Below, piece by piece: positions 4,976 to 59,934 of a DNA stretch of 64,000 nt. The number at the start of each line of letters is the position of its first letter. The first letter of the stretch is position 1. The notes under the pieces were generated by a model that saw only the letters and a program-made list of their open reading frames with translations, searched no databases and was not told the origin of the DNA. The position numbers and the translations under genes were made by a program. The DNA is from Siphonodentalium dalli (Eukaryota; Mollusca; Scaphopoda; Gadilida; Siphonodentaliidae), in the NCBI GenBank assembly GCA_032622095.1, contig CP136068.1, positions 158,925,465 through 158,989,464 of the forward strand, given 5' to 3'.

Positions 4976-4976
4976 A

Positions 4977-31000: not shown

Positions 31001-34000
31001 ATTGCAGCAAGGTACGGACCGTATTTGCCATCGATTGGACGAAGGTGACCTGGGCAGACTTGACCAAGCCCCTGTATTCGGCCCTCGCCGCTCGGCTCTT
31101 CATAGAACTCAAGCACTTCGATGTGCTTCCGGCGAGAATAGACGAGCAGGCAATGCTGTGGGCCATGCTGTTTAACCAAAACACGGACTATCTGAAATTT
31201 AGAACCGATACGCATGCTATTCCGAAAGGTGGGTGACATTTATAGCGGGAACCAGTCTATTCCGAAAGGTTGGTGAAATTTATGGTGGGGACCCAGGCTG
31301 TTCAGAAAGATGTGTTGAATTTATAGAGGGTACCAGGCTATTCGGAAGATGTGTTGAATTTATAGAGGGTACACATGCTATTCAGAAAAATGTGTTGAAT
31401 TTATAGAGGGTACCAGGCTATTCGGAAAGATGTGTTGAATTTATATAGGGTACACATGCTATTCAGAAAAGTGCATATATACGTATTAGGTCGAGGAACA
31501 GTGACAGTGTGACAGATAACAATAACCACTTCATGTCATGTACATGTATCACGACGAATAAATATGACATATAAAACAAAAATCTCACCCACCTATTCCG
31601 AAGGTAGGTGCAATTGATAGCGGGTGCCAGGTTATTCTGGAAGGTGGGTGAAATTGATAGCGGGAACCTGGCTATTTCGAAAGGGGGATGCAATTTATAG
31701 AGGGAACGGTGCTATTCATATCAAGTTGGGTGAAATTCACAGAGGGTACCCATGCTATTCCGAAAGGCGGGTGAAAACCACAGAGGGCACCCATGCAGGC
31801 TATTCCGAAAGATGGGTGAAATTTATAGCGGAAACGAGGGTATACCCAAAGGAGGATAGAATTTATACCGGGAACCAGACTATACCTGAAGGTATGTGAA
31901 ATTTATAGTGGGCACCGATGCTATAACGAAAGGTCCGTGAAGTTTAGAGCGAGCACCCAAGCTATTCCGGAAGTTGGATGGAATTTATAGGGGGAACCAG
32001 GCTATTCAGAAAGGTGGGTGAAATTTATACAGGGAACGAGGCTATTTAAGAAATGGATGTTGATTTCTTGCTTTCCATGGAAAGCGTTCCACCCATGAAA
32101 ATGTCAGACCAACTTGAATCCATACTCTGTGGAATACAGCAAAATCAACACCACCGATTTCTTATATGTGACCCGCCATATCAAATCCAGTGTTAAGTCG
32201 GGTTTCTTTTTACCCTGTGCCAATGCATTCTCTTATATATGCGAGTCGACCATAGGTCGCCTCGCATATATAAGAGAATGCATTGGCCTAACAATGTTTT
32301 ACAATTTTAATAATTTTTTCTTGTATTCTTTAACAATTTTATAATTTCACCCATACAGAGGCCCAGACAAACATGAGCAGACGACACTCTCCTATATGCT
32401 TATATATATGTGTGGGGCTCCCTGCAGGGTAATGGATGTTTTTTTATTTTATGTCCTAACAAATTTAAGAAACATTTATTTAAAAAAAATGATAAAAAAT
32501 TGTTAGGCCAATGTATATAGGTCGCCTCGCATATATAAGAGAATGCATTGGCACAGGGTAAAAAAAATCCCGACTTACGACTGGATTTGATATGGCGGGT
32601 CAAATATTTACATTCAGCCGATACGAGTCAACTGGCAGATTAAAAGAGTATTAATTGTCCATTTCCCACGTTATTCTCTTGACTTGACAATAATGATGCA
32701 AGTTGCGTCTGCACAAAAATGGATGCAAATTGGGGTCAGCCATCGACGTCATGTGACGTAATTTCGACCAACCAACGTCCTGTATTCATGTTCCACAACG
32801 CGAATGCATGTGTGAGTGTAAATATTCAGAAAGGTGTTTGAGATTGTTATTTTAAATGCCATATTTATTCGTCTTGATACATGTACATGACCTATACATG
32901 TAGTGGTTATTGTTATGTGTCACTTTCCTTGGCCTTATACGTGCACCGTTCACCAACTTGTAATAATTGACCTACTGACCCTGAGGCGGAATAGCGGGTT
33001 ACGTAGCGTTTTTCCGAAGACCCATAACTCCGAAGGTCCGATTCTCCGAAGGTCCGATTCTCCGACGCCCCGATTCTCCGAAAGCCCATAACTCCGATGT
33101 CCCGATTCTCCGAAATCCCATAACTCCGAAGACCCATAACTCCGAAAGCCCATAACTCCGAAGGCCTATAACTCCGAACGCCCATAACTCCGAAGGTCTA
33201 TAAGGCCGATTCCCCGAAGGTCCGATTCTCCGAAGGTCCGATTCTCCGAAGATCATGTTTTATCGCTTATTAAATAGTTGACAGTCCATTGGCGGGGTCA
33301 ATGGGGCCCTAGGGAAGACCGCCCCCAAAAAACATGTCAATTGTCATGTAAACGTCAGGAAATCCCTCCTAGGCATTCAAATATTCACAGTGTTCCTGCC
33401 CAGGGAGCCCCCGGACCAACGATTGGGGGCGACCCCTCCCATGTATGCGCTCCCCAAATCAGGCCTTCGTGATATGCTTTCGGCATATCCACTGTCGGAT
33501 ACCCGTTTAGGTTCGGACATTCCAAGATGGCGGCACCCACTTAAGCAGATAAACGGTAAGTGTATATATTGTCTCCAAGCGGCAATCAACGACATCTTTT
33601 GATGATACACCTTGAAACAGTTATGTAGGAATCTGTATGCCCAACACATACGTAACACGCCTTTCGCATGACAGGCATGTGAATTGTTGTATTTGGCGTG
33701 TCAAGTCGTCATAATTTTTAGAAATTTTATCGAGGCGGCGAAATGTTCGCTTTTTCGTATTTTTCTGGCCCTGGGCTCATGCATCCGCAAATTTATGTAT
33801 TGTTGTGGGTAGATTAGGTCACCACACATCTTCGGAATGCAAAACCGGCGATATTTTTATTGTCTAACTCCGAAAAACGACCTTTGAAAATTTCAAAATG
33901 TTCAGGTTCGGATTCGCAACATTCGTGATGATTTTGTTCAGGTTCAGACACAATTTTCGTTCAGGTTCGGACGCATCAAAAACTTCGCATAAAAATGACA

Positions 34001-37000
34001 CGCCGAGGAACAGTCGCGTTCTTATTGCGTTTTTGTGCATTTGGTTATCTTCCATTCGTAAAAGAAACGATAAATGGGGAACACGAGGCATGGTTTTAGC
34101 CCACTCGTGAATAATTGGGCGGACTTTCTTATTTTATGCGTGTGAGATTTATGCGATCACGTGATTCTCCTCCACATCCACATACGATGCCACGAAGGTC
34201 GCCGCACGTAGATGAGCAGAATCTGGTCTTCGGAGTTGTGGGCCTTCGTAGTAATAGGTCTTCGGAAAACCGGTCTGACACCGAATAGCGAGGGTTATTG
34301 TCTACGTTGGCCATACCGTAGTTTGATTGGACGAAGTGCGATCACGTGCCACATATAGTAGTATTGAGCATTGCCCGGCAAGCGAACTATCGCGAGGGTT
34401 AAATTCTTCGAAGTCTTATCCGCCTGTTGGCGTGAGCCGATAATTATGTCAGCTATAACAAGAAAATCAATGTCGGAAATGGTAACACGCTCAAGATCAT
34501 ATACTATATACCCATGATTGTAATTATAGAATATAAAATATATTGGTTTTGCGAATGACCAACTCAGAATTCCGTTAAAATAACAATAACAACCAGCACC
34601 TAATTAACGAACCGGTGGCCGACTCGGCCGTCTCCGACCACAAGCCCCAGTAGGCTGCAGAAGAAGCATGTCTATAAAAGTTGAAATATAAGACTTACAA
34701 ATTATCATTTTCATTTCTTTTATTTGTAATTGGCATAGCTTATCACAAACCAAAAATCAACATTATATGACATATAATGTTAACGACAATAAAACAATTG
34801 AAATTCACAACTACACCTTTTACCGGACTCGGCCTCCGGTCGCAGTTCGACTTTTAATCCTCCCAAAAATTCCCATTCTATAAATAAAACACCCATGCGT
34901 CCATGCGAAACAAGAATATCTACATTAGTATACACGCGGAGCGCGCGTAATACACACATATTGACCCTTTCATCACTGGAGCTTCCTGAATTTTTGCGAA
35001 AACCCGCTGCCAATGCATTCTCTTATATACATGTATGCGATTCGACCATAGGAAGCCTCGCATATATAAGAGAATGCATTGGCCTAACAAAGTTTTTTTT
35101 TATAAATGTTACAAAATTGAAGAAAAAATGATTGTTAAAGAATGTATGAAATGATGATAAACAATGATAAAAATTGTAAAAGAGTGAAAGAAAAAATAAT
35201 AAAAATTGGTAACTGATGTACGAAAAAAATGATAAAAAATGATAAAAATTGTTAAAGGTTGTAAGAAAAAATGATAAAAAAAAGATAAAATTGTTAAATA
35301 ATATAAGAAAAAATAAAACAAAAATGATAAAAAATGATAACAATAATAAAAATTGTTAAAAAATATATGAAAAATTGTTAAAAAACTGTAAGGCCCATGC
35401 ATTCTCTTATATATGCTAGGCGACATATGGTCGACTCGCATATATAAGAAAATGTATTGGCACAGGGTCTTAAATGCGCCATGTTGGGATAGAATAGCGA
35501 GAATTATGTTCACGAAGTGATGTTTTTTGAAATGTTGAACAGCAAGCGAGACTATTAACCGAGGCTGCAGGGTAATAGTTCTAAAACTGTAGCCTGGGGC
35601 GATATTTCGCTTGCCAGACATTGGTCAAAACTACACTCTGACTCTTGATCGCGCATGCCAAATCGATTATACTTAAATTGTGCTGTAACAAGTTTTTATA
35701 GATTTTATGTATTGTGGGGAGCGCGAGTCCACCTTAGTGACAAATATGTGTCATCTAATCCCAACATCTCTGTATTTTATCTACCGTTAAAGATGCATAA
35801 TCCGATTAAGCGCCACTCAATTACTATTTATTTGGATTCGGGGGTAAAAACTATTTGATTCGAGTCCCACCTATCAGACCTCAGAGTGATTACATATCAA
35901 TTTTTAAAATCTATTATTTTTCACTATCGATACTTAACCCTTTACCCAACAGAACGGCCCTGTGCCAATGCATTCTCTTATATATGCGAGTCGACCATAG
36001 GTCGCCTCGCATATATAAGAGAATGCATTGGCTTAACACATTAAAAATTATAAAATTGTTAAAGAATGTAAGAAAAAATGGTAAAAAGTGTTAAAAAAAG
36101 ATTTTTTTTAGGCCAATGCATTCTCTTATATATGCGAGGCGACCTATGGTCGACTCGCATATATAAGAGAATGCATTGGCACAGGGCATAACTGTAACTA
36201 TCACAATGTGGTCAAGGAGCCGGTTCCAATGATATCCATATTTGTATGGTTCTATTGAGACAGACCAAAGATATTTTAGGCTGTTGAAGCTTTATTTGGC
36301 CGGTTTTGGCCGGTTTGTTGGGTAAAGGGTTAATAGTGGCCCAGTAAAAAGTCGATGGTCTCAGACAAAGTTGCGGATGAAGATGGATAACTGTAAAATC
36401 AAGAGGCTTTGTGTTGATAATAAGACCAAATTTCGTCGAACAACAACAACAACACAATTTCGGGCAATTTTATACTATAGTTGACAGTGGGTAGCATTAT
36501 TTTTGGGCAATTATTCGATTCTGATAACTGAAGCAGAATTTCTAAATATGTTGTTGTTTTTGGAATCTGATTATATGGGGACCATCGAATCAGATTGAGT
36601 ACATTTAAAATACGTTTTAATCAAACTCATTGTATTGAATAGTGACGTCAGATGTGGTAGGGGGGCTGGCACACTAACCATTCACTCTCCTTTTATACCA
36701 TATATCAAACAGTGCATATAAATGTAATTTGCATATAACATGACATAACATATACAATAGCTTCGGTTGTCAAATACATGTATCCAGAGGCATTTCAGTG
36801 ATTCTATGTGTATGCCTATATCACTGAATAGTTTTTTTTATATCTTACTTGCAGAGAACTGTGACACGAAAATCGACATAGCCTTTGTCGTTGACGCATC
36901 TGGAAGTATCACGTTTCCGAATTTCGTCATCGTAAAGGACTTTCTAAAGAACGCCACAGCCCTTCTTAACGTAGGCGAATATAACACGAGGCTAGCCATG

Positions 37001-40000
37001 GTGAAATTCAGTAGAAGCGCAAACGTAGAATTTTACCTCAACACCCATTACAATAAATCTAACATCTATGCTGCTATTGACGACATGATTTACGACAAGG
37101 AGAAAACCAACACGGCTGCAGCTCTCGATTTGACAACAACTCGCGTGTTCCAGTCGAATGCAGGGTCACGTGATGACGCAGTAAAGCTGATCCTACTCAT
37201 AACGGACGGCGAATCGGACGTTCCCAGTGAGACACTGAAGGCCGCTCAACGGGCAAAGGATTCTGGGATAATTATATTCTCTCTTGGGATAGGTTTACCA
37301 AACTTCGACGAACTGAATGCGGTATCCACGCCCCCGCAATGTACACACGTGTCGGCCATTAATAATTTCGACGAATTGGACAGCATATTGGACGAAGTGC
37401 ATAAAAGCGCATGTCGAGGTGAGTTATCGCAATCACATGACCCAGTGATTGTCATGAGTTGAGTTTACTCATGGGCGTTGGATGTCATCATAAGTTGAAT
37501 TGGCCCCATGCACCTTACCAGCTGAGTCGCCGTGGGTCCACGATACGCCTTTTACTAACATATGTGCCATATTATATACCATTTGAAAGAGTAAGCTCCA
37601 AAGCATTGTATTATCAACTTATCCGGCGTAATAAACTGTGAACATGTTGTTTTTGTTGAGTTACCGACTTTTTGTGTACTTAACTTTCATCTATTTTTCA
37701 GTTCAAAGTGTTTTATTTTCAATGGAGAGGGAATAACACTATATCTTAAAGATAGAGTTATTCCCCTTCCATTGAAAATACATTTTTAGTCGGATTTCTG
37801 TTGATTCTGGGGGTCATAACGGGGGAATATTTCTATGATTTCGGCTATGTTTTCTATTTCTATATGGGCATCTTCTGAGACACAGACGTTTCAAACTATG
37901 ATGAATTATAGTATTTTAATAATATTTTATGGCATATATTGTTATTAAAACCGTATATTTCAAGGTACTATAAAAAAATAATCGGGGACTCCAAAATTAA
38001 GTGGGTCTTGAAGCATTAACACCAGCAATTCCATTCAGATTGAGATTCAGATTGAGGTTCAGACATTCGTGCGGACAGACACATGTCAACTTTTCGATAT
38101 GAACAAAGAGCAATAACCTAAGAATGGATTGTGCAAACAAAAACAATTAATCAAGATCAAGATAATATGTTGTTAATTAAAATAACTAACTTGATTAATC
38201 AGGATAGCTAAGTTGATCACTGAAAATAGCTAAGTTGATTAATCAAGATAGTTAAGTTGATTAATCAAGGTAGCTAAGTTGATTAATCAAGGTAGCTAAG
38301 TTGATTAATCAAGGTAGCTAAGTTGATTAATCAAGATAGCTAAGTTGATTAATCAAGATAGTAACTAAAAGTGGTACGTAAAAATAGACGTATCGGTCCG
38401 CAAAGTACCATCCTTGTGGCAGTGATCTATACACATCGCAGTGATAGCGGGGAGGGCGCTGCGTGGAGTCACGTTACACGTTTTAGAGATGTTACTCACT
38501 CTCTAGTCTAAAAGCAAGTCCCAAATAATATTAACACAAAATGATCCTACCATAAACAGTTCTTTGTCTCCACTATTATTTACTTTGATTGGTCATCATG
38601 ATATCTGCTAATGAATCGTGAGATGAAAGAGGGAACGAATGACGACACATGAAATGTGATTAAGACGGTATGCATGGAACAATGACTCATACATAAATTC
38701 ATTAGCCATTGTCTTGAAATAGATTTCTAACAAAGACAGTTAATATTTGCTCAAATTATGAACATGGGGGTCATTGTGAGTCCTGAGTCCCAACTGTCTC
38801 CATGATTTTGAAGTAATAGATTATTGGCGGACAACTCGCGTGTTCTCACAATGATGCCTTAATTTAGAATTATTACCCAGATGTCCGTATTCCCGACGAT
38901 CTGAACATCTTACACATGTTCGTTTTGGTAATAATGGTTTAACCCTTTCAGTGCCAGGTCCGAATTTTGTATCAACCCATATACCCCGTGCCAATGCATT
39001 CTCTTATATATGCGAGTCGACCATAGGTCGCCTCGCATATATAAGAGAATGCATTGGCCTAACAATTTTTCATCATTTGTTATTATTTTTTACAATTTTA
39101 ATATTTTTTTCTTATATTCTTTAACAGACTTATTTTGTAGGTTTAGTGCCAGGGAATCTTACGTTTTTCATGGGCATCAAAATTATTACTATGAATACTT
39201 GGTATAGTTTTGAGTTATAACATGCCCCTAAGGTTTTATCCAGTTTGTTTTTAAATTCGCTATAGCTTGCTTAAGTATACCCAAAAAAAATTCAACCCCA
39301 ATTATTTGTTTTAGGGCCGATTTTACAGACCGTAAATTCATCGGCCCCTGGCACTGAAAGGTTTAAAGTGATGTGAAACATTCCGCTGAGGTTTTCATAG
39401 CGGAATAATAAAATAATCAGACCAAAATAAGTTATTTTCAGACATTTGATATCAAAATAGTAGTAGTTCAACGTTGCGTTCTATAAAACTGTAAAGTCGA
39501 TGCAGTTGACAATTTAGACAGCATCATTTGATTGCTATATGTTCTTGTAGTGGAGATACTGTTTGGATACTAACTTTTCGGTTTTAGTCACTGAAGCAAG
39601 TCCACAGTATGTCTTTAACACACGTTTTATCATGTTTCCCGGGCGCTGTGTCCATCGCGAACGCAATGGATGCACTTTAATGTTGATGTCATTCTATTCA
39701 TTTCAGCTTCACGATGGGTGTCACAAGGTGAGACGAATCATTATGAAATAAACAACACAAACCAGTCAACCATCGTCACTGCTGTCATTCCACCCAACAC
39801 AAATAATACAGGAATAGTGGTGAGTATCACGTGACGCCACAACAACCAATCAACTGTAGTTACGAATACTATTGTGATAGTGGTGAGCATCACGGGACCG
39901 ACAACAACCAATCGACGACTGACATTAGAGCACAATCCAATTGTTGCAATCGTTCCCTGATTTTTGGTAAAGCACACAAATTCCATAGGCTGGCGAAGGA

Positions 40001-43000: not shown

Positions 43001-46000
43001 TTTGTTAACAATGTTAGTGGTGACAGCGGACGGAGTGTGGACCTTAGGCTATAAATATCAGATCTTATTAACGATGCCAGGGCCTAACTTATAAAACAGA
43101 TTTCCCACTGTAGCGTATATCATTGTAGGGATCGGGTGCTTTATAAGCATAATTATTATTATTGTACCAACTATAATCGCTTGTTTATATTACCGCTGCA
43201 ATGTTGGTTTATTAACCCTTTACCCAACAGAAGGGCCCTGTGCCAATGCATTCTCTTATATATGCGAGTCGACCATAGGTCGCCTCGCATATATAAGAGA
43301 ATGCATTGGCTTAACACATTAAAAATTATAAAATTGTTAAAGAATGTAAGAAAAAATGGTAAAAAGTGTTAAAAAAAGATTTTTTTTAGGCCAATGCATT
43401 CTCTTATATATGCGAGGCGACCTATGGTCGACTCGCATATATAATAGAATGCATTGGCACAGGGTATAACTGTAACTATCACAATGTGGTCAAGGAGCCG
43501 GTCCAATGATATCCATATTTGTATGGTTCTATTGAGACAGACCGGATATATTTTAGGCTGTTGAAGCTTTATTTGGCCGGTTTTGGCCGGTTTGTTGGGT
43601 AAAGGGTTAACAATGCACATGCATGTGTAACGATATCTTCATTTTTCCAGACGACTGTGGAATGCGGTAGGGTTGAAGTATACATATCATATACCACGCC
43701 CCATCCAGGACCAGCCTTACACGACACATTAGAAGTGGCCACGCCCGACCGACCGTCCGTCATTCACATCGAATCAACAAGCAATGGTCGACCAGTGTAT
43801 ATCACTTACATCGGAAGTCAAATACCGGGTGATATCACGCAATGTGACCAATCCAGCTTCAATATAACTTATACAGACGGAAAGCCAACCGGTGAGTATA
43901 GCCACGCCCTTATTCATCATCATAGCCACGCCCAAAGCATGCTAATTTATTTCCTTAGAGCGAAGATCGATGAGTGTATATCACTTACATGGGAAGTAAA
44001 ATGCCGAGTGACTCACAATGTGATAATTCCAACTTCAGTATAATTTATACAGACGGCAAGCCAACCGGCGAGTATAGCCACGCCCTAACTCATCACCAAC
44101 GTATAACAATAATTTACTTCAAACGCGACCTAACTCATCATAATTGCCACATTCAACGAACGTCAATTATTAACTATAACATCCTAACTCATCACCATAG
44201 CAACACCCATCGCATGTCAATAATGTGCATTAAAACGATGGTAGAAATATATACATATACATCGGAAGTAAAATACCAGGTGAAGTCACGCAACTCTAGC
44301 TTCATGCAGTATAACTTATACAGACGGAATTCCAAACAGTGAGTATAGTCTAACCCTAACTCATCATCATCATCATCATGACCACCATCACAACCAAACA
44401 CATGCACATAATTGGCTTTAAACACGCCCTAACTAATGATCACAGACAGCCCCGCCCAACGCATGACAATAACTGGCTTTAAACAAGCCTTCATTAATCA
44501 CCATAGCCTCACCCAACGCATGCCCATAATTTGCTTTAAACAGCCCTACTCATGAACATAGGCACACAAATGCATGTCAATAATTTGCTTTACACACGCC
44601 GTAACTCATCGTCATAGACACACCAACGCAATGCCATGTCAATGATTTGCCTTAAACGATGGTAAAAAAGTCTATTTCACTTACATCTTAAGTTGATACC
44701 GGGTGGTGTAAAGCAACTCCAGCTTCAGTATACGTATGCAGACGGAAAGCCAAGACAGCCTAACTCATCATTATAATCACGCCCAACGCATACACATAAT
44801 TTGCTTTGAAAACGCCCTCACACCAACGCATGCAATAATTTGCTTTAAACACGCCCTCACTAGCATAGCTTATCACAAACCAAAAATAAACATTATTGAC
44901 ATAATGTTAATAACGACAATAAACGAAATTGAAATTCCCAACTACACCTTTTACCGGACTCGGCCTCCGGTCACATTTCGACTTTTAATCCTCCAAAAAA
45001 ATCCCATTCTATAAATAAAACACCCATGCGCCCAGGTTAAACAGGAATCTCTACATTCGTATACACGCGGAGCGCGGAATAATGTTGGAAAGCGACACTT
45101 GTATCGAGATAGAGAGATGTGGCTACCCTGCGTATCCACGAATGTATGTTTTTAAAAGAAAGCGAAAGTAGATTTAATTAGTGGTGGTATTTGGACGGAT
45201 TAGACATAATTACATTGCACGTAGTAACATTTTCTTCCAGGAAACGACGTCAAATGTTTCGACAAGAACGGCACGGAGGTGGTGTGCACCCCACTGGACT
45301 TCCTCGTCAGCCCATATGGTCACCTTCTCTGTAAAGGTACGAGTATGAATTACCTTCCTCGTCAGTCAATATGTCCACCTTATCTGCAAAGGTACGGGTA
45401 TGAATTAGCTTCTTCCTCGTCAGCCCATATTGTCACCTTCTCTGTAAAAGTATCATTAAAGGCCCATTTGATTTTCGAGTCACCGATTATTTTTTTTATA
45501 ATGCCTTAATATACGCTTTTACTAACAATTTAGGACACACAATATGGTTAAAATACTATAATTCATCACCATTAATTTGGAACGTCTGTGTATCAGAAGG
45601 TGCCCATAGAGCAATAGCAAATATCTCAAATCATGGAAACATTTCCCCCGTCTCGCTCCCAGAATGCCACGGAATTCAAACTAATATGTAGAGTTATTCA
45701 CATTCCATTGAAAATAATAGACTTTACAGTAGTCCAGACGAAACTTAAGCACAGAAAACACATCGGTACCTCAACAAAATGTTCACGACCAACACCGGAT
45801 AAGTTAATAATACAATGTTTTGGAGCTTCCTCTTTCAAATGGTTTATAACATGGCATATATTTTATATAATGTGATCTGGTGATTCAAAATAAGTGGTCC
45901 TTTAACCCTTTCATGACTGGAACTTCCCGATTTTCTGTGAAAATCCTGTGTCAATGCATTCTCTTAGATATGCGAGTCGACCATAGGTCGCCTCGCGTAT

Positions 46001-49000
46001 ATAAGAAAATACATTGGCCTAACAAATTTGATATTAATTTTTTATAATTGTTAAAAAATGTAAGAAAAAATTATAAAAATTGTTAAAGTATGTCAGAAAA
46101 AATAATACGTGTCTTGTTATCAGGTCATAGTTAAAGGTAGTCTCGATAATTGCACGCGAGGTTCTCCTACCCATGCTTGAATTCTTGAAACCGTAATCGT
46201 CACTAAGGATATGGCAAAACCAATAGAAAGAACGAAAATTAAGTGGGCCTTTAAAGTTTCCAGACTATTTTTTGTGGAACATATTTTACTTTTACTTAGA
46301 TTCCAGTATATAAAATAACAAGTCTGGAACGACAAGTGCTATATTAAACATGCTATTTTGTTTGGTATGGATTTTCTATACATTTATTAATATTTGTTTC
46401 AATGTTGAGAGGAACATTATAAATTATTTTGCTTATTTTTCATAGCAAAATGATATTTTGTGATATTTATGGGTTCAATTTCTGAGACTGAAGTTCTTAG
46501 TACATAAAGAGGGAAACGTCATAATATTAAAACGTGTGTTTATAGTTTACAAATGATTACTGATTCTCACATTTTGAGTGATAATTTTCACAAATAGCAA
46601 ATTAACAGCAATCCATACGTATTGTGTGAAAATTCAATTGAAAAAATCTGGAATTTTAGACAAATGTTTTTACACGTATGAATATAGGCACGATCACAAG
46701 CTCAATGTCATTGACTGATTTGTTCTCAACAGACACAGAGGAAACCTTGCTACCGCCGAATCCCTGCACAGAAAACAATTTACAGAACTCTGTCTTATAC
46801 CATCCGTATCCCGGCGATACATCCAAGTTTATCAGGTTTGTTTAACCATCCGTATCCAGGGGATATATCCAAGTTTATCAAGTTTGTTTAACCACCCGTA
46901 TCCAGGGGATAAATCCAAGTTTATCAGGTTTGTTTAACCATCCGTATCCCGGGGGTACATCCACGTTTATCAGGTTTGTTTAACTACCTGTATCTAGGGG
47001 ATACATCCACGTTTATCAAGTTTGTTTAACCACATGTATCCCGGGGGTACATCCACGTTTATCAGGTTTGTTTAACCACCCGTATCCAGGGAATATATCC
47101 ACGTTTATCAAGTTTGTTTAACCACCCGTATCCAGGGGATACATCCAAGTTTAACAAGTTTGTTTAATCACCCGTATCCAGGGGATACATCCAAGTTTAT
47201 CAAGTTTGTTTAACCACCTGTATCCCGGGGATATATCCACGTTTATCAGGTTTGTTTAACCACCCGTATCCAGGGGATACATCCACGTGTATCAAGTTTG
47301 TTTAACCACCCGTATCTAGGGGATACATTCAAGTTTATCAAGTTTGTTTAACCACCCGTATCCCGGCGATAGATCCAAGTTTATCAGGTTTGTTTAACCC
47401 CCGTGGCCCGGTGATACATCCAAGTTTATCAGGTTTGTTTAACCACCCGTACCCAGGGGATCCATCCAAGCTTATCAAGTTTGTTTAACCACCTGTATCC
47501 CGGGGATATATCCACGTTTATCAGGTTTGTTTAACCACCCGTATCCAGGGGATACATCCACGTGTATCAAGTTTGTTTAACCACCCGTATCCAGGGGATA
47601 CATTCAAGTTTATCAAGTTTGTTTAACCACCCGTATCCCGGCGATAGATCCAAGTTTATCAGGTTTGTTTAACCACCCGTGTCCCGGTGATACATCCAAG
47701 TTTATCAGGTTTGTTTAACCACCCGTGTCCCGGGCCAATATACAGAACGCTGGTTTTACCACCCGTATCCCGGGGAGACATTCAAGTTTATCATGTTTGT
47801 TTAACAATCTGTATCCCGGGGATACATCTTAGATAAGTTAGTTTATCAAGTTTGTTTAACCACCCGTATCCAGTGAATACATCCAAATTGATCAGGTTAA
47901 GTTTAACCACCCGTATCACGGTGATACATCCAAGTATATCAGGTTTGTTTAACCAACCGTATCCCGGGACATATCCAGGTTTATCAGGTTTGTTAAAAGA
48001 GACCCAAGGCACTCGCAGTCGAGCCCCAATATATGGTGCCGAACAATTGCAGAATGAGGTCCACAGAGGGTGAATTTAGTGTTAGTGAAGCTGTGCACAG
48101 AGTCACACATTCTTCATATGGGGACCTCATTATTCATGGCACCATCGTTTGTTTTGGGAGACCTATACTCATATTTGGTGAATATGGTATTGTGCACCCA
48201 TTGGGCACATCGATTATGCTTTGCACCGTCTGCCAATTTCGTTAGTTAGCTTAATGAAAACCAGAGAACACGTCATGGCACGGTTCATAACTTCATTTTC
48301 CTCATTCTGGCTGTGTGGGGCAGAATCCAGACACGATTGCACAACCCATGACAATGCTTATCATGTCGTCTCCCCCGGGGCCGTTGCATGCTGTTACATA
48401 AATTATCCTTAGCGTTGTGTCGCCGATGACACAGCGTGTGTGGCTGCTCCGCTACGTGTCACGTATTTTTTCTTGTATAGTTTTCAAAATTTTCTCAAAC
48501 CGGGCCGAACAACCACTGTCATCCCGGTATGACCTGGTTTCTTGCCCGTAGCCGTGTGCATTTGTAAAGAGTTAGACCACTAGTTGTTAGGATTAATGCA
48601 ATTTTTCAGGTTAAAATATCTTAATGGTCTCATACCGGGAATTATGAAGCACGGTTTATGAATATATAGGATTAGGCCTGAGCACTGAGGTGCAAGGGGG
48701 TGCAAATGGAATTATGCAAAACTTAGCGTTGTGTCGCCGATGAAAAGCAAATTCGGGACACAGCGTGTGTGGCTGCTCCGCTACGTGTCACGTATTTTTT
48801 CTTGTATAGTTTTCAAAATTTTCTCAAACCGGGCCGAACAACCACTGTCATCCCGGTATGACCTGGTTTCTTGCCCGTAGCCGTGTGCATTTGTAAAGAG
48901 TTAGACCACTAGTTGTTAGGATTTATGCAATTTTTCAGGTTAAAATATCTTAATGGTCTCATACCGGGAATTATGAAGCACGGTTTATGAATATATAGGA

Positions 49001-52000: not shown

Positions 52001-54584
52001 GTCATTTTCTTGGTGTTTGGCAAATCCGAGCGATTTGATAAAAAAGCCAGTGTCTGTATGAAATATTCAAGAACATAAATAAATATTTTTACAATGGCTA
52101 TGCTGGTGTATGCAAACGACGTGAATTATAACCGATTATAGTCGAGTTACAACACCTAATACATCCCGTATTAAAATTGATCGCAATATGTTTTTGAATG
52201 TTTGACACACACACATAATGGCCTTTCCTGGATATGTTCTCATTATCCGAACACCCAGAAATGGCGGTACAATATAACGGTACTGATTCTTAACACAGTA
52301 ACAGTTTGCCATACCAGTATCATAGCAATTTAGTTGGACCCACCATCAGCATAGCAAACAGCAGGACCATTTGACCAGTGGTGTATATATCACGGTAGTC
52401 TCACCAATCCACCCATACTTCATCACTCGTTGAAGCTTACTGCTTACAATTATTTGTGAACAAATGAAGTAAATTTTATGGTTCAAAATATTGTATTTTT
52501 TTTACAGAATTACCTTCCGTAAGTTTAAGTACATCATCTGTGAATGAATTTATGTCCGTAAAACAGTTGATGTCCTTACACGTGTAGTAAGTTTAAATAT
52601 ACTGTTCCGTTTCATTTCATTGTCTCCTTTATATTGCGACGTTACGTTGAACTTGGCAGTTTTGTACTAAGTTGAGGTTACGCTCATGATATTTCTCGTG
52701 AGCACATTTGTGTTGATTGTCTAAACTACAAATTATGGAACTATTATCCGTAAAGTAGACTTGCTCCAAGAAAATGGACTAATAATGGTTCCAATGCCCG
52801 AAGATTGGTCCGTTAAATATCCCCCCTTGGATCCATAGGTTTACGATAAATTTTAACAGTGTATATCGGTTCTTGAATTCAGATAATGGCCTTTTTTCGA
52901 TACAATCAGATAAGCCAAACACCGCGAAAACTTTAGATAAAATATCGGTGCATTTTCTCAACAGCATCAGTTTGTCATACCAACATAGCAAATCAGCAGG
53001 ACCACTTTACCAAGGGTGTATTTTTAACCGCAAGAGGTTAGATTATAATGAAGTGCGATTATTTCTTGATCAGGTGCGATTTCTCCGGACAGATGTTCAT
53101 AACACTCTGCCCACCCGGCCAGGTGTACTACGATCATGCGCACACGTGCGGTAGTGTGCACTCCGGACCGATAGGGAACGATTATAAGCTGCCATTAGAG
53201 ACCAACATCCAGAATCCATGTACGGTGATGTCCATAGCAATGAACCACTACTACTACCCGCATCCATTAGCTCAATTCTACATACAGGTAAGAACCCATG
53301 TACGGTGATGTCAATAGCAATGAACCACTACTACTACTACCCTCATCCATTAGCTCAATTCTACATACAGGTAAGATCAATTTAATCTACATACAGGTGA
53401 GATCAATTCTACATACAGGTGAGGTAAATTGTACGTACAGTTGAGGTAAATTGTACATACATGTGAAATCAATTCTACATACAGGTGAGGTAAATTGTAC
53501 ATACAGGTGAGATAAATTCTACAAACTTGTGAGATACATTCTACATACTTGTGAGATAAATTGTACATACATGTGAGGTAAATTGTACATACGGGTGAAA
53601 TCAATTCTACATACAGGTGAGATAATTTATACATACAGGTGAGATAAATTATACATACATGTGAGATAAATTATACATACAGGTGAGATAAATTATACAT
53701 ACAGGTGAGGTACATTATACATACAGGTAAGATAAATTCTACATACTGGTGAGATATATTATACATACAGGTGAGATAAATTTAATTATGCATACATGTG
53801 AGATAGGTTATGGCCGTTATGCCATGATTCTCAACTCTAGCTCAATTCTACATACAGGTGACACAAATGATATTCTACATACAGGTGAGATAAGTTATAC
53901 ATACAATTGATATAAATTCTACATACACGCGAGATAACTTATGCATACAGGTGAAATAAATTAAATCATAACTAAAGGTGAGATAAATTCTACATACAGG
54001 TGAGATAAATTCTGCATACAGTTGAGATACATTCTACATACAGGTGAAATAAATTCTACATACGGGTGAGATAAATTCTGCATACAGTTGAGATACATTC
54101 TACATACAGGTGAAATGAATTCTACATACAGATAAGATAAATTATATTTTCAGTGTGACACAGATTGAGACTTGCATTTGTTTAAACGTGTCTAATTAGC
54201 ACGTATAACGGTTCTATAGTACAGCATGGAAGGTGTCACGCATGCGCGCATTCAGATTCAGCAGCTAGTTCTTGCACTGATTTGATCATTGTTTTATTTC
54301 AGTGTGATACATGGGGACACGCCTGGAAGGTTCCATGCGCAGCTTCCATGGTTTGGTCCACATCACTGCAGAAATGCGTCTCGGAGAGCACCCACACTAC
54401 GGGGGATCATGTGCTGAACCCGTGCACACCCACAGCCATCGCAAACGGACATATGTTCCACGCGTACCCGGACAACATCCACAAGTTCATCCACTGTTCT
54501 CTCGGGGGACATCTGTATGTACAGGAGTGTCCCGGTGACCTAATATGGTCGCAGCCAGCCGAGACGTGTATATTCCGACGCTGA
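12803..54584 (+). CDS. Secreted VWA and chitin-binding protein, Pif/BMSP-like (nine coding exons)
   Basis: Joining exons 12803-13063, 30946-31228, 36855-37418, 39707-39819, 43651-43891, 45241-45336, 46733-46835, 53074-53287 and 54303-54584 gives 2157 nt, 718 codons plus stop. Every junction has AG/GT borders and matching phase. Order: signal peptide (1 to about 25); N-terminal domain ending SRDG...YGGIWQ, continued by IDEAEF... in exon 2 (to about 181); VWA domain (184-367) with complete MIDAS motif DASGS 195-199, Thr in NTAAAL near 268 and Asp 299 in TDGES; Asn/Thr-rich linker with three N-glycosylation sequons (exon 4); an unrecognised Cys-containing region (408-519); three chitin-binding type-2 modules (Cys 531/555/566/579, 603/626/637/650, 666/690/701/714). 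Proteins with this order are known in mollusc and brachiopod shell matrix, where they bind chitin and organise mineral. No LamG domain, unlike classical Pif. Secretion is expected; the shell role is inference. Confidence 0.88.
13122..14067 (+). mobile_element. MITE family I, copy 1, TTAA-flanked, carrying a minisatellite
   Basis: It begins TTAAAGGTACTCAATCT and ends GATTGAGTACATTTAA, inverted ends with TTAA outside. The body after 13615 (GATTCGATGGTCCCCATAT, TTTTTACTGGGCCACTA, GGCGCTTAATCGGATTGAG) matches, inverted, 35787-36608. In this copy an array of AACTTGTTTAAACAAGTT-type repeats sits near the left end. It lies in intron 1 just after the exon 1 donor. Confidence 0.75.
13160..13610. repeat. 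Palindromic ACTTGTTTAAACAAGT minisatellite
   Basis: Repeats of AACTTGTTTACACAAGTTAG are spaced by GTAAATTGTATAACCAAGTTA, giving a 43-bp period in the last part (13411 onward). Each core is itself a near-perfect palindrome. The array is bracketed by inverted blocks CTACAGCAGCGTAGAA and TTTCTACGCTGCCG. From 14068 to 14377 the intron shows nothing recognisable. Confidence 0.85.
14378..14601 (+). repeat. Repeat family F, copy 2, first half
   Basis: Matches the first half of the copy at 9525 up to GCTATGCCAATTA, where the 1.6-kb foldback element starts. The second half resumes at 16206. Confidence 0.8.
14600..16205. mobile_element. 1.6-kb foldback (palindromic) element with poly-C/poly-G shoulders
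   Basis: Arms of about 700 bp (14600-15305 and about 15485-16205) are near-perfect inverted copies around a loop of about 180 bp. Each arm starts GTCCAGGAGATATTGGTCGA, then a C (or G) homopolymer, then ACTTGTTAACAAGAAAAAAA, then several ATGGCGGCC-type motifs, and GGAGATACTC near the loop. It interrupts repeat F; AATTA occurs at both flanks and may be the target duplication. No coding capacity is apparent; the open frames across the loop are not supported. Confidence 0.85.
16206..16480 (+). repeat. Repeat family F, copy 2, second half
   Basis: Resumes with ATTACAAATAAAATAAATG and ends in the family's GTTACCATTTCTGACATTGG block. A roughly 125-bp tail is tandemly duplicated at 16480-16660 (CTACTGATCCATCTATAGG twice). 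From 16661 to 17000 nothing is recognised. Confidence 0.8.
17000..17790. repeat. Degenerate CA-rich tandem repeats
   Basis: Diverged units containing CATACAGCTA, ACCATACA and TATACACACAC recur about every 50-70 bp. Long His/Thr/Tyr-rich open frames here on the + strand follow from composition and have no splice or start support. Confidence 0.65.
17790..19115 (-). repeat. Long ATGGC-rich repeat family G, copy 1
   Basis: The whole stretch is, inverted, homologous to 62640-63960: shared blocks include TTCTATTCTGGTTGTCCC, ACAAATTGTGACTCAC, AAATCGAATTTTTGAG and several GGCGGCCATTTTGG motifs. The right edge (AGTCTACACGGCC, CTTGTTAACA, a G homopolymer near 19100) resembles an arm end of the foldback element at 14600-16205. 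From 19116 to 19500 nothing else is seen. Confidence 0.75.
19521..19810. mobile_element. MITE family B, copy 2 (partial)
   Basis: Contains the internal block CACCCATACAGAGCCCCAGA, the CTGCAGGGTAATGGATG block, one hairpin module (19691-19759) and a decayed end CGACTTACGACTGGATTTG. The other hairpin and outer end are absent. From 19811 to 20455 nothing is recognised. Confidence 0.75.
20458..21086 (+). repeat. 39-bp minisatellite, 16 copies
   Basis: Units of 39 bp containing CCCAGAACTGATCTCATTCC and TGATAAGGTAGACTG are almost identical. Because 39 is a multiple of three, the reverse strand stays open as a 13-residue repeat (MRSVLGKQSTLSG); no start, splice or domain evidence supports a protein. 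It lies in intron 1; 21087-21540 holds nothing recognised. Confidence 0.95.
21541..23185 (+). repeat. 56/61-bp satellite with higher-order structure, about 29 copies
   Basis: The basic unit is 56 bp (GTACATTGAATCACACCACA ... CGCATGCAATGCACATCAGAGT). A 61-bp variant has CATCGCATACTG and CACATCACATGCAACGCACC. The variant recurs about 341 bp apart (22268, 22609), equal to one 61-mer plus five 56-mers. From 23186 to 23600 the intron is unremarkable. Confidence 0.95.
23605..24160. repeat. TTTGCCAAAT-rich repeat pair with internal (ACC)n
   Basis: Clusters of TTTGCCAAATGAAAATATT occur at about 23615-23680 and 24080-24150 in the same orientation, with a (CAC)n microsatellite at 23863-23893 between them. 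The origin is unknown. Confidence 0.55.
24435..24886 (+). mobile_element. MITE family A, copy 1 (left of the giant array)
   Basis: It starts CCCTTTACCCAACAGAACGG, has hairpin modules at 24466-24530 and 24673-24742, and runs into the family body (TATTTTAGGCTGTAGAAGC) and GGCCGGTTTGTTGGGTA, where the array begins instead of the usual AAGGGTTAA. The left flank is TATTTAGTATATATAGTATG, the same sequence that forms half of each array unit. Confidence 0.85.
24887..30643 (+). repeat. Giant 42/43-bp satellite made of a MITE end plus flanking DNA
   Basis: About 130-140 units. Each joins TTTGGCCGGTTTGTTGGG (the last bases of MITE family A) to TATTTAGTATATATAGTATG (the MITE's left flank) and TTAA. Variants: 42 bp with TTAATTTGG, 43 bp with TTAATAATGG, and TATACATA for TATATATA. 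A homogeneous block of TTAATTGGG units occupies 29710-30370, and a 23-bp derivative lacking the MITE part (GGGGTATTTAGTATATATAG) occupies 30375-30640. In-frame 42-bp stretches leave long open frames on both strands; these are not genes. Confidence 0.95.
30644..30923 (-). mobile_element. MITE family A, copy 2 (inverted, right of the giant array)
   Basis: Reads TATCATTGGAACCGGCTC, hairpin 30699-30767, spacer, hairpin 30826-30894, then GGGCCGTTCTGTTGGGTAAAGGGTTAA. It is inverted relative to copy 1 and lacks the part replaced by the array. It ends only 22 bp before the exon 2 acceptor. Confidence 0.85.
30946..31228 (+). CDS. Pif-like gene, coding exon 2
   Basis: The acceptor TTTCTGCTCCTAG precedes IDEAEFNATLSCAG, which continues the WQ of exon 1 in phase 0. 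The exon encodes ...AIDWTKVTWADLTKPLYSAL and DEQAMLWAMLFNQ, the second half of the N-terminal domain seen in Pif/BMSP-like proteins, and ends AIPK with donor AAAG|GTGGGT in phase 1. The last ~19 exon bases recur many times in the array that follows. Confidence 0.85.
31216..32055 (+). repeat. 40-bp minisatellite copied from the exon 2 splice donor, about 18 copies
   Basis: Units run CTATTCCGAAAG|GTGGGTG then AAATTTATAGCGGGAACCAG. The first unit is the real exon 2 end and donor. Several copies keep AAAGGTGGGTG or AAGGTAGGTG; many have lost GT. A break of about 120 bp at 31480-31600 separates two blocks. Confidence 0.9.
32169..32602. mobile_element. MITE family B, copy 3 (complete, 434 bp)
   Basis: The ends TGACCCGCCATATCAAATCC and its inverse enclose a full hairpin (32217-32287), the internal CCCATACAGAGGCCCAGACA block and a second, shortened hairpin (32505-32551). 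No open frame. From 32603 to 33000 nothing is recognised. Confidence 0.85.
33005..33255 (+). repeat. CCGAAGGTCCGATTCT / CCCATAACT minisatellite
   Basis: About 16 copies of a roughly 15-bp unit of two alternating types, CCGATTCTCCGAAGGT and CCCATAACTCCGAAAG. From 33256 to 34450 I see no gene or repeat; a spliced exon there is not supported because exons 2 and 3 already join in phase. Confidence 0.85.
34456..34958 (-). repeat. Repeat family F, copy 3 (complete, inverted)
   Basis: Carries all family blocks in reverse orientation without the foldback insertion, from CAATGTCGGAAATGGTAAC to TACACGCGGAGCGCGCG. It serves as the uninterrupted reference for copy 2. Confidence 0.85.
34971..35480 (+). 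mobile_element. MITE family E, copy 1
   Basis: The left end TTGACCCTTTCATCACTGGA resembles TTAACCCTTTCATG. Hairpins lie at 35012-35083 (with an extra ACATG in one arm) and 35392-35460, with a spacer of about 300 bp made of degenerate AAAATTGTTAAAGAATG-type repeats. The right end is not clear. From 35481 to 35786 nothing is recognised. Confidence 0.7.
35787..36608 (-). mobile_element. MITE family I, copy 2, interrupted by a family A MITE
   Basis: TTAA lies at both ends (35787 and 36605). The body is the inverse of 13615-14067 and is split at 35934-36333 by a family A MITE. The intact sibling in intron 1 shows the uninterrupted sequence at the insertion point (CACTAAATATTCC). Confidence 0.75.
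35934..36333 (+). mobile_element. MITE family A, copy 3 (complete, 400 bp)
   Basis: TTAA at both ends, CCCTTTACCCAACAGAACGG at the left and the inverse CCAACA...AAAGGG end at the right; hairpins at 35963-36031 and 36112-36180. The terminal CCCTTT next to TTAA is the piggyBac-superfamily signature. No transposase. Confidence 0.9.
36855..37418 (+). CDS. Pif-like gene, coding exon 3 (VWA domain)
   Basis: The acceptor ATCTTACTTGCAG precedes ENCDTKIDIAFVVDASGS. The exon contains a whole von Willebrand factor A domain: DASGS metal site, NTAAALDL, LLITDGESD, GIIIFSLGIG, and the final INNFDELDSILDEVHKSAC. Two cysteines at the edges (residue 184 and near 368) could close the domain. All MIDAS residues are present, so metal-dependent ligand binding is plausible. 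It ends CGA G|GTGAGT in phase 1. Unlike most exons here, its donor is not followed by copies of itself. Confidence 0.9.
37540..38018. repeat. MITE family H, copy 1 (degenerate)
   Basis: Blocks CATATTATATACCATTTGAA, GTATTATCAACTTATCC and AAAATTAAGTGGGTCTTGAA match 45449-45904 and 58733-59174. It includes a 65-bp near-perfect hairpin (37708-37780, arms ATTTTCAATGG). From 38019 to 38160 nothing is recognised. Confidence 0.65.
38160..38362 (+). repeat. 22-bp TTGATTAATCAA minisatellite, about eight copies
   Basis: The unit AGCTAAGTTGATTAATCAAG contains a perfect 12-bp palindrome. From 38363 to 38938 the intron shows nothing recognisable. Confidence 0.9.
38939..39366 (+). mobile_element. MITE family C, copy 1 (complete)
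   Basis: TTAA at both ends; the termini CCCTTTCAGTGCCAGGTCC and the inverse closely fit the piggyBac consensus end. It has one hairpin (38991-39059) and a body with TTAGTGCCAGGGAATCTTAC. From 39367 to 39706 nothing is recognised. Confidence 0.85.
39707..39819 (+). CDS. Pif-like gene, coding exon 4 (Asn/Thr-rich linker)
   Basis: The acceptor CTATTCATTTCAG opens ASRWVSQGETNHYE; the exon ends TGIV|GTGAGT in phase 0. It contains three N-x-T/S sequons and no cysteine, suggesting an exposed, possibly glycosylated linker after the VWA domain. The end of the exon with its donor recurs once downstream (GATAGTGGTGAGCATCACG near 39880). Confidence 0.75.
40313..40711 (-). mobile_element. MITE family A, copy 4 (complete)
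   Basis: TTAA-flanked, 399 bp, inverted relative to copy 3; hairpins at 40464-40533 and 40614-40682. The stretch 39820-40312 before it contains only the exon 4 donor duplication. Confidence 0.9.
40885..41035 (+). repeat. ACACATTATAAC minisatellite
   Basis: About 12 copies of a 12-bp unit. From 41036 to 41830 no gene is seen; a small inverted repeat (GTTACAATTCATTCTG at 41491, inverse at 41563) is the only structure. Confidence 0.9.
41835..42265 (+). repeat. CTGGCACCGCTAACATTGAG minisatellite, about ten copies
   Basis: Units of about 42 bp, some extended by an extra CCCCCTATATCCC block to about 65 bp. The long open frames here on both strands are repeat artefacts. Confidence 0.9.
42324..42792 (-). 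mobile_element. MITE family C, copy 2 (complete)
   Basis: Ends CCCTTTCAGTGCCA and inverse, one hairpin (42673-42741). It lies in a short tandem repeat whose neighbouring unit at 42841 (GAAGTGATGTTAAAGAGCG) shows the unoccupied TTAA. From 42793 to 43211 only these 65-bp repeats and unremarkable DNA are present. Confidence 0.85.
43212..43610 (+). mobile_element. MITE family A, copy 5 (complete)
   Basis: TTAA-flanked, 399 bp, hairpins at 43241-43309 and 43389-43457; it ends 40 bp upstream of exon 5. Confidence 0.9.
43651..43891 (+). CDS. Pif-like gene, coding exon 5
   Basis: Acceptor CTTCATTTTTCCAG; encodes TTVECGRVEVYISYTT ... QCDQSSFNITYTDGKPT in phase 0 to phase 1, donor ACCG|GTGAGT. Beta-rich with two cysteines and one sequon. 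I do not recognise a named domain. The last 110 bp recur as degenerate copies downstream. Confidence 0.8.
43970..44780 (+). repeat. Degenerate copies of the exon 5 end and donor
   Basis: Three extra copies of the ~110-bp exon end with donor: 43970-44090, 44241-44355 and 44659-44770, each holding TATACAGACGG-like sequence followed by a CGAGTATAG or GTGAGTATAG donor region. Between them are ~60-bp repeats with AACTCATCACCATAGCCAC and ATTTGCTTTAAACACGCCC. Confidence 0.85.
44861..45078 (-). repeat. Repeat family F, copy 4 (half)
   Basis: Inverted first half of the family, from AGCTTATCACAAACC to ACACGCGGAGCGCG. Confidence 0.8.
45241..45336 (+). CDS. Pif-like gene, coding exon 6
   Basis: Acceptor CATTTTCTTCCAG; 96 bp encoding GNDVKCFDKNGTEVVCTPLD followed by FLVSPYGHLLCK, phase 1 to phase 1, donor AAAG|GTACGA. 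Three cysteines; the module is not recognised. Two altered copies of the exon end and donor follow directly. Confidence 0.8.
45297..45460 (+). repeat. Three-copy duplication of the exon 6 end and donor
   Basis: CTTCCTCGTCAGCCCATATG ... TGTAAAG|GTACG recurs at about 45355 and 45415; the second copy keeps AAAGGTACGG, the third has AAAAGTAT. Confidence 0.9.
45449..45904. mobile_element. MITE family H, copy 2 (TTAA-flanked)
   Basis: Starts TTAAAGGCCCATTTGATTTTC and ends AATAAGTGGTCCTTTAA, inverted ends with TTAA outside. The body matches 58733-59174. Confidence 0.75.
45902..46115 (+). mobile_element. MITE family E, copy 2 (left half)
   Basis: Begins TTAACCCTTTCATGACTGG; one altered hairpin at 45953-46019, then degenerate AAAATTGTTAAA sequence. 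It directly abuts family H copy 2, sharing its TTAA. From 46116 to 46732 there is a family H fragment (46130-46262) and otherwise nothing. Confidence 0.7.
46733..46835 (+). CDS. Pif-like gene, coding exon 7 (start of chitin-binding module 1)
   Basis: Acceptor TTTGTTCTCAACAG; encodes DTEETLLPPNPCTENN and YHPYPGDTSKFIR, ending in phase 2 with donor TATCAG|GTTTGT. It supplies the first cysteine and the aromatic strand of the first chitin-binding type-2 module; the remaining cysteines are in exon 8. Its end was the seed for the 46-bp array that follows. Confidence 0.85.
46790..47995 (+). repeat. 46-bp minisatellite copied from the exon 7 splice donor, about 26 copies
   Basis: Each unit carries CCGTATCCCGGGGATACATC, AAGTTTATCAG|GTTTGTTTAA. 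The first unit is the true exon end. Most copies keep the TATCAG|GTTTGT or TATCAAGTTTGT junction. Reading past the real donor reaches a stop (TTT GTT TAA) at once. From 47996 to 48410 nothing is recognised. Confidence 0.95.
48411..49056 (+). repeat. Tandem duplication of about 314 bp
   Basis: AGCGTTGTGTCGCCGATGA starts both copies (48411 and 48725); the second has a 15-bp insertion (AAAGCAAATTCGGG) and few other changes, so the duplication is recent. It is followed by a G homopolymer near 49080. Confidence 0.9.
49184..51667 (+). repeat. 29-32-bp minisatellite, about 83 copies
   Basis: Units GGGTTGTCCCTCTGAATTGC followed by TATGATG with a variable ATG/TGTT/ATGGTA spacer; A/G variants (CTGAATT, CTGGATT) alternate in local patterns. 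It ends directly in a truncated MITE hairpin at 51668. Confidence 0.95.
51668..51845. mobile_element. MITE family B, copy 4 (fragment)
   Basis: Begins inside a hairpin (AAGATAATGCATTGGCC) and contains the CATCCATTACCCTGCAGGG and GTCTGGGGCTCTGTATGG blocks, then stops. From 51846 to 53073 no gene is seen; a diverged direct duplication (GTTTGCCATACCAG near 52305, GTTTGTCATACCAA near 52970) is present. Confidence 0.75.
53074..53287 (+). CDS. Pif-like gene, coding exon 8 (chitin-binding modules 1 and 2)
   Basis: Acceptor TTTCTTGATCAG; completes module 1 (CDFSGQMFITLCPPGQVYYD, HAHTC) and starts module 2 (NPCTVMSIAMNHYYYPHPLA). Cysteine spacing C-x23-C-x10-C-x12-C is the short four-cysteine form of peritrophin-A-like modules. 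It ends YIQ with donor ACATACAG|GTAAGA in phase 0. The last ~75 bp are duplicated at once downstream. Confidence 0.85.
53288..54150 (+). repeat. Exon 8 end duplication and 22-25-bp splice-donor array, about 33 copies
   Basis: 53288-53372 repeats the exon end (ATGTACGGTGATGTCAATAG ... ACATACAGGTAAG). After it, the unit AATTCTACATACAG|GTGAGAT recurs to about 54150. Many copies hold a strong 5' splice-site consensus (CAG|GTGAGA, CAG|GTAAGA). Confidence 0.95.
54303..54584 (+). CDS. Pif-like gene, last coding exon (chitin-binding modules 2 and 3)
   Basis: Acceptor TTGTTTTATTTCAG; CDTWGHAWKVPC completes module 2 and NPCTPTAIANGH through ECPGDLIWSQPAETC forms module 3; stop TGA at 54582-54584 just four residues after the last cysteine. 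An ATTAAA near 54691 could be the poly(A) signal. The coding end and 3' UTR start are duplicated at 54600-54640. From 54641 to 55435 nothing else is recognised. Confidence 0.88.
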   Translation, partial: CDTWGHAWKVPCAASMVWSTSLQKCVSESTHTTGDHVLNPCTPTAIANGHMFHAYPDNIHKFIHCSLGGHLYVQECPGDLIWSQPAETCIFRR

Positions 54585-55435
54585 ACACACATGGAGCCCC
54601 TCGTGTAAATTCTGACGCTGAACCCACGTGGAGCCCCTCGGCGATATGAGCAGACAACACTCAGTTTGAGTTATAATGTTAAATTCTGATATTAAACCTG
54701 CTTATTTGTTAAATTCTGATATTATTACCCGGTCCGGTTGTGGGGACAAAACGAATCCCGACTACCAGTTAATATGGGCTATGAATCCCGACAACCAGTT
54801 AACATGGGGTATCACCCGAATGCCGCGCACCAGAAAATTTGCAACTGTAAAAAAATGGCCAAATTAGGGAGTGTATCACCCAACCCACCATGTCGTCACG
54901 TCCCTGATAATGTGCGGCATAGCGATATATAGAGGAGAGGTCTCACCCAAAGGGCGTCAACATAATTTATTTGTTTATTGAAATTTGAGCGGCTAAGCGA
55001 CAAAGTAGATTTTTTGGGGTTTGGAGTTTAAAGTCTTTTCAGTGGTGAAATACGTTTTCGACGTTGTCATTTTTGTTAGTGGAGAAACGACCGTGTATAC
55101 GATTAATATCACCGGAAAACTAATTAACTGAACGTAAAAAACACCGACCGCTGGATAGCAAGTGACATAACTTGCCCAGTTACACGAATCATTTTTACAC
55201 TTTACACACTGACAGTGACACCCACAGCCTAGCTCGAGAAATCTCAATGTCCCAGGAAGTGATGTTCGCAACTTTACAAGGGGGTAGTTTGTATTGCGAT
55301 AACACGATTTGATTAATGCAGATCGTGTATGCACAAGTGCATGTCACTATGCCTTTATCGGCTCGCTTCTTGGAATTGTTGTATGTCAATGATATCTTCC
55401 GGACAACTGAGATATCCAGACACTGATATCATATG

Positions 55436-59775: not shown

Positions 59776-59934
59776 GTAATCACAATTTCAAGGGCTGCTA
59801 GAAAACACGGGTTAGGATGACAGAACGATCAGCACAATTTAAGTAGAGTAGAACAGAAATGGAGAAAAGACACATTGGTGCCACTTAAATAAATAACTAT
59901 TGTAACGACTAAAACACAGACAAGTTAACCCTTT

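Follow-up and report, generated by a model that had tools for sequence, protein, structure and literature searches.

Tandem repeats that run across exon-intron boundaries are known from lancelets, where they are called mirages and have been described in the genes for Adh3, troponin C and the globins BflGb6 and BflGb9 (PMC3087553). According to the accessible part of that article, the Adh3 mirages of B. floridae and B. lanceolatum have units of 10-72 bp (work cited therein) and the globin mirages have units of about 150-160 bp. Mirages can occur at 5' as well as at 3' boundaries, and regular splicing is undisturbed, also in BflGb6, where the mirages span acceptors. The same source reports that the length of the mirages varies, at Adh3 somatically too, and offers an intron-gain model with mirages as raw material. 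In the lancelet gene PGBD5, imperfect tandem repeats of 60 and 108 bp lie over 5' and 3' splice sites and splicing is, by the available text, not impaired (PMC3902484), and the introns of lancelet VCBP3 are stated to contain complete or partial exons that resemble the adjacent exons, some of them with canonical splice sites (PMC2632668, accessible part). In the Rogers model of intron gain, as outlined in the part of PMC4974935 at hand, an exonic segment with AGGT is tandemly duplicated and the AG of the later copy becomes the acceptor. Human segmental duplications contain internal tandem repeats that alter gene structure, sometimes at exon-intron boundaries and with new introns (PMC2812944, accessible part). 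The available portions of three further papers (PMC2206037, PMC12783039 and PMC5802833), one of which describes minisatellites in the first intron of earthworm metallothionein genes, report no donor-spanning arrays.

Here we analysed a window of 64,000 nucleotides from the scaphopod Siphonodentalium dalli (contig CP136068.1, positions 158,925,465 to 158,989,464; coordinates below count from the first letter of this window), which contains a gene for a protein with VWA and CBM14 domains. The defining feature of a mirage, i.e. tandem units across an exon-intron boundary, was found at six of the eight donors of this gene. As in the lancelet cases, minisatellite-like units lie over boundaries at several loci, and the unit lengths found here (22 to 176 bp) are bracketed or neared by the published ones. 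Unlike the lancelet cases, as far as the accessible part of PMC3087553 goes, six donors of one gene plus its stop codon are affected here; the lancelet work includes measurements of length instability and of splicing, whereas we read one sequence. PGBD5 differs by having both kinds of splice site affected and few copies (available text of PMC3902484). VCBP3 shares chitin-binding domains and exon copies within introns with our gene, but its data are not shown in PMC2632668 and the accessible part describes no tandem arrays. The Rogers model, as presented in the portion of PMC4974935 at hand, likewise involves tandem copies that could provide both donors and acceptors, whereas the existing acceptors of our gene lie outside the arrays detected by TRF. 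The human repeats resemble ours as minisatellites that are at times found at exon-intron boundaries, but, by the available text of PMC2812944, they lie mostly within exons of recent paralogues and consist of about 30-bp units in four copies. The kind of repeat is already described and the intron-gain idea is already in print (PMC3087553, accessible part); the additions made here are the number of affected donors in one gene and the stop-codon case. Neither a gene affected at most of its donors nor a duplication across a stop codon turned up in the literature search, a weak negative since subscription journals lay mostly outside its scope.

Results

The rebuilt gene model comprises nine exons on the plus strand (12818-54584), which are joined into a single open frame of 713 aa by eight introns, all of the GT-AG type. 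Exon 1 (12818-13063), an open frame followed by a GT donor, encodes a putative signal peptide and an N-terminal domain, and exon 3 (36855-37418) encodes the VWA domain (Pfam PF00092, E 1.5e-40). The remaining exons are located at 30946-31228 (exon 2), 39707-39819 (exon 4), 43651-43891 (exon 5), 45241-45336 (exon 6), 46733-46835 (exon 7), 53074-53287 (exon 8) and 54303-54584 (exon 9, based on the gene model and Pfam, with the stop codon at 54582-54584). Pfam recognized CBM_14 in three stretches of the product (E 1.4e-14), with coordinates reported for the best stretch only; by our own reading of the protein, the first CBM14-like domain would start in exon 7. The model begins with the ATG at 12818, and the in-frame ATG at 12803, taken as start in the original prediction, is equally possible. 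A lysozyme-like look of the N-terminal domain obtained no support from any search; a PDB search with the N-terminal 160 aa returned one chain at E 0.86, which is no match. A literature search by domain architecture yielded nothing naming this gene, and Rfam gave no matches in the whole window at gathering thresholds. A paralogous exon 1, which belongs to no Pfam family, lies at 59512-59775 and is followed by a GT donor at 59776 without tandem copy; exon 1 is all that is seen of its gene within the window.

In order to assess each junction, 80 bases around it were compared with the next 1 kb downstream or the previous 1 kb upstream, whereby a match was required to cross the junction and its score was compared with those of 200 dinucleotide shuffles. 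At six of the eight donors, namely those of exons 2, 4, 5, 6, 7 and 8, the downstream similarity exceeded all 200 shuffles, with scores of 72, 34, 102, 80, 124 and 87, respectively, versus shuffle maxima of 17 to 28 (17 each for exons 4 and 5). The donors of exons 1 and 3 scored 7 and 9 within the next 1 kb, and in both cases 88 of 200 shuffles were as high. Both the affected and the unaffected exons are those named in the original prediction. In the opposite direction, no match within 1 kb of any junction beat all shuffles. The donor-spanning duplications are thereby confirmed as real, and since their unit lengths differ (about 40, 63, 176, 55 and 46 bp for exons 2, 4, 5, 6 and 7, and 83 then 22 bp for exon 8), they are probably separate events.

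The array at the exon 2 donor (31214-32046, plus strand as all features below) consists of 18 copies in two blocks, one reaching to 31500 and the other starting at 31591, with corresponding TRF rows at 31209-31470 and 31593-32046. The exon 4 donor shows a two-copy duplication (39796-39917) with a second copy of about 75% identity, which is below the TRF threshold. Degenerate copies of the end of exon 5 and the start of its intron extend over 43780-44772, with the given unit length as the first offset and four copies, the last of them partial; a distinct 57-bp TRF array (44393-44636) lies within this region. Three copies were found at exon 6 (45299-45459) and 25 at exon 7 (46799-47997), in both cases by TRF and by junction copies. 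At exon 8, the array is nested (53206-54143): one 83-bp duplication is followed by the 22-bp unit, giving 31 copies by our search and 35.2 copies of the 22-bp unit by TRF, and the array makes up 856 of the 1015 bases of intron 8. The copy numbers of our search include the exon copy and span 2 to 31; given the TRF count at exon 8, the predicted range of one extra to about 33 copies is a fair one. Two of the copies, one each at exons 5 and 6, fail to align across the junction. The GT of the donor is retained in 8/18 copies at exon 2, 2/2 at exon 4, 2/4 at exon 5, 2/3 at exon 6, 25/25 at exon 7 and 27/31 at exon 8.

It had been proposed that the duplicated donors share the motif AG|GT. This holds for donors 2, 6, 7 and 8 but not for donor 4 (GTG|GTGAGT) or donor 5 (CCG|GTGAGT), and the array-free donors 1 and 3 are AG|GT as well. 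At none of the six donors does the ungapped repeated stretch start at AGGT, and its exonic and intronic lengths vary; a shared cause acting at AG|GT is not supported. The GC skew of the coding strand in five arrays (exon 4 excluded) was 0.29, -0.30, -0.25, -0.12 and 0.03; a clearly positive G-skew in one of five and the lack of a common sign speak against R-loops as the cause.

The stop codon carries a duplication of the same kind. A unit of 37 bp, comprising CG...TGA plus the following bases, has one further copy in the 3' flank (54565-54640; TRF 2.1 copies with 89% matches), and the score of 58 compares with a maximum of 20 among 200 shuffles. There is no splice site at this position, so a donor is not needed for such a duplication; it is, at the same time, a single two-copy event. 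Among the acceptors, only that of exon 9 beat all shuffles (1/8), with a score of 25 versus a maximum of 22 in 200 for a weak single copy 149 bp upstream (54154-54302). The acceptor of exon 8 is marginal with a score of 15 (8 of 200 shuffles as high). None of the eight acceptors lies inside a TRF array, even though they border the same introns as the donors. No similarity beyond shuffles was detected at the start codon or at the paralogous exon 1 donor, and the paralogous start codon is marginal with a score of 17 (13 of 200 shuffles as high).

The nine exons were then scanned, together with the paralogous exon 1, at points every 3 bases (765 points). Scores of at least 24 were obtained at 108 points. 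These are confined to exons 2, 4, 5, 6, 7, 8 and 9 and lie at most 112 nt from the 3' end of the exon, with no mid-exon site farther in. All four TRF donor arrays start inside the exon and then cross the donor, and no TRF array crosses an acceptor and ends in the first 100 nt of an exon.

Comparing donors with acceptors within the gene, 6/8 versus 1/8 gives a Fisher P of 0.041, and 6/8 versus 2/8, with the marginal acceptor of exon 8 included, gives P 0.13; for arrays of at least three copies, 5/8 versus 0/8 gives P 0.026. The predicted excess of duplications at donors over acceptors and mid-exon points is seen, with these P values for the acceptors, within this gene, and the mid-exon part comes from the exon scan. 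When all exon ends are considered, 7/9 3' ends compare with 1/9 5' ends, the latter comprising the start codon and the eight acceptors (Fisher P 0.015); with both acceptor copies counted, 7/9 versus 2/9 gives P 0.057, and 7/9 versus 0/9 gives P 0.0023. These P values are indicative only, as the gene was picked for its striking look.

Tandem arrays occur throughout the gene. By hand, 69 TRF rows were merged into 33 arrays, with outside rows dropped and one period chosen per array. Rotation of these 33 arrays along the gene left, on average, 3.2 donors within an array, and the probability of at least four was 0.41; there is no excess under this coverage null because the arrays cover so much of the gene. 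A donor array, however, has to grow out of a unit that lies across the donor. Under an even-seeding null (31 arrays, two pairs being joined), 0.28 donor-spanning seeds were expected versus the four donors found within TRF arrays (P 2.0e-4). A seeding excess at donors is hence suggested by the second null and absent under the first. Among random intron points, 265 of 565 scored at least 24. Site by site, the duplications are beyond chance; for the gene as a whole, the answer depends on the null.

Within the three arrays tested (exons 2, 7 and 8), AG|GT is middling and without special conservation: its similarity to the exon copy ranks 17/37, 28/43 and 14/19 among four-column windows, and the GT alone ranks 30/39, 8/45 and 9/21. 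Similarity does not decay with distance from the exon in these arrays (Spearman P 0.89, 0.93 and 0.94). By a hand-entered 5' splice-site matrix, 30 downstream donors in four arrays score no more than 1 bit below the real one, if not higher (4, 0, 0, 1, 11 and 14 for exons 2, 4, 5, 6, 7 and 8). When any of the 30 is joined to the normal acceptor, the frame is closed prematurely within 3, 4 or 7 aa of the normal exon end or, in the single exon 6 case, 80 aa past it, and they are therefore no source of normal variants.

With regard to intron gain, the donor junctions of introns 1 to 8 were compared with their own acceptor junctions, which gave scores of 5, 4, 4, 2, 4, 4, 15 and 6, against a mean of 5.5 and a maximum of 11 for 56 mismatched donor-acceptor pairs. 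No acceptor was found in a copy of its donor's unit, and only intron 7 has a weak match in register, ATCAG|GT at both ends, which may be taken as a weak lead rather than proof. Introns 7 and 8 (phases 2 and 0) follow SKFIR and QFYIQ, respectively, and theirs are the arrays with the highest copy numbers. Because both sit just before a cysteine of what we read as a CBM14 domain, the protein sequence suggests that they may occupy an older intron place shared by the two domains.

Several other repeats and frames were observed in the window. In intron 1, a 42-bp unit is repeated about 131 times (24869-30389), ending about 0.5 kb before exon 2 with no apparent link to an exon, and a 39-bp unit in 16 copies (20458-21088) is open for more than 200 aa on both strands. 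A palindromic element with the centre GTCGACCATAGGTCGCCTCGC or its reverse and ends in gcattggc, which resembles a small inverted-repeat transposon, occurs in several introns and near 60000 (e.g. 32215-32290, 38985-39060, 40470-40540 and 40613-40683); five k-mers taken from it had no match in the literature searched. The region 2427-7129 contains broken long open frames of 604, 510 and 264 aa with a transposon-like appearance; two of them matched no Pfam family and the third gave one weak TCR match below the cut-off.

Discussion

We interpret the arrays as minisatellites of the mirage type, i.e. as products of a general tandem duplication that survive where the first copy keeps the donor or stop signal, and we assign this reading a probability of roughly 0.6. 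According to it, tandem duplications would arise frequently throughout the genome, and their survival at particular places in a gene would be set by a filter. The first unit would combine the last bases of a coding segment with the non-coding bases that follow directly and would later be amplified to a varying extent, presumably by slippage or unequal crossing-over. With a unit over a donor or stop codon, the first copy would hold the real signal and the later copies would lie in the intron or the 3' flank, so that the protein would remain unchanged provided that the first signal is used; the first donor is probably the one used. With a unit over an acceptor or start codon, on the other hand, the real signal would be preceded by a competing one, and a unit confined to an exon would alter the protein. 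That copies are harmless on the downstream side is the simplest explanation of the pattern. That six of eight donors plus the one stop codon carry duplications speaks for this reading, and the stop-codon case, although one event, is the best single argument for the filter. The suggestion in the original prediction that extra donors are tolerated fits the duplications observed in six introns. Against the preferred reading, tolerance explains the sites of survival but not the seeding excess, which is absent under the coverage null; the complete retention of GT at exon 7 also counts against it. In addition, the acceptor-spanning mirages of BflGb6 (PMC3087553, accessible part) imply that the asymmetry between donors and acceptors may not be general and that the filter is not absolute.

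A first alternative, that exon boundaries fall into arrays by chance in an array-rich gene and that coding constraint removes the exon-internal ones, is doubtful but keeps some weight. It is in line with the rotated arrays and with the nearly half of random intron points that reach a high score, but it does not account for TRF donor arrays that without exception start in the exon and cross the donor, for the even-seeding result, or for acceptors that stay free of TRF arrays while bordering the same introns. Exon 3' ends, donors and stops alike, could also be hot spots of duplication beyond what tolerance explains, which we consider unlikely. A mutational cause tied to the donor itself, such as U1-bound nascent RNA, R-loops or slippage, was the shared cause put forward in the original prediction. 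Six affected donors in one gene with probably separate events, and the ratio of 6 to 1 over acceptors, would agree with such a cause. The stop-codon duplication arose without a donor (one case), donors 4 and 5 depart from AG|GT, the repeated stretches neither begin at AGGT nor agree in unit length, the GC skews have no common sign and the paralogous exon 1 donor has no copy. The evidence thus leans against a donor-specific cause, which we regard as improbable.

It is quite improbable, too, that the arrays are intermediates of intron gain by tandem duplication, with introns arising from, or turning into, repeat-unit introns. The share of the array in intron 8, the match at both ends of intron 7 and the proposal of mirages as intron material (PMC3087553, accessible part) point in this direction; the seven other introns score like mismatched pairs or thereabouts (2 to 6), all acceptors are outside TRF arrays, and the Rogers model takes an exonic segment as its starting point, but a working donor is already part of the units here. 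Introns 7 and 8, moreover, appear to lie at equivalent places of two CBM14 domains; this hints at an older intron and is a further point against intron gain. Finally, extra donors could be kept for their usefulness, for example because further U1 sites reinforce exon definition or because decoys reduce output. The retention of GT at exons 7 and 8 and the 30 downstream donors of about equal strength (by the hand-entered matrix) would be expected from such a use, but GT is kept in fewer than half of the copies at exon 2, AG|GT ranks as middling in the three arrays tested and the stop-codon copy has no donor; these ranks weaken the predicted usefulness, and we hold it to be very unlikely. Taken together, the interpretation given in the original prediction is partly supported.

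Mirages have so far been told gene by gene, and donor cases alone cannot separate a mutation tied to donors from general duplication combined with a filter on signal order. Six mirages and a stop-codon copy in one gene offer a cheap way of separating the two ideas. With copy numbers from 2 to 31, the arrays also provide a natural series in which the choice of the first among many equal donors can be studied. If exon 3' ends were indeed hot spots, exon tails would steadily be turned into minisatellites in this genome, and any gene end might seed new introns, new donors or longer reading frames.
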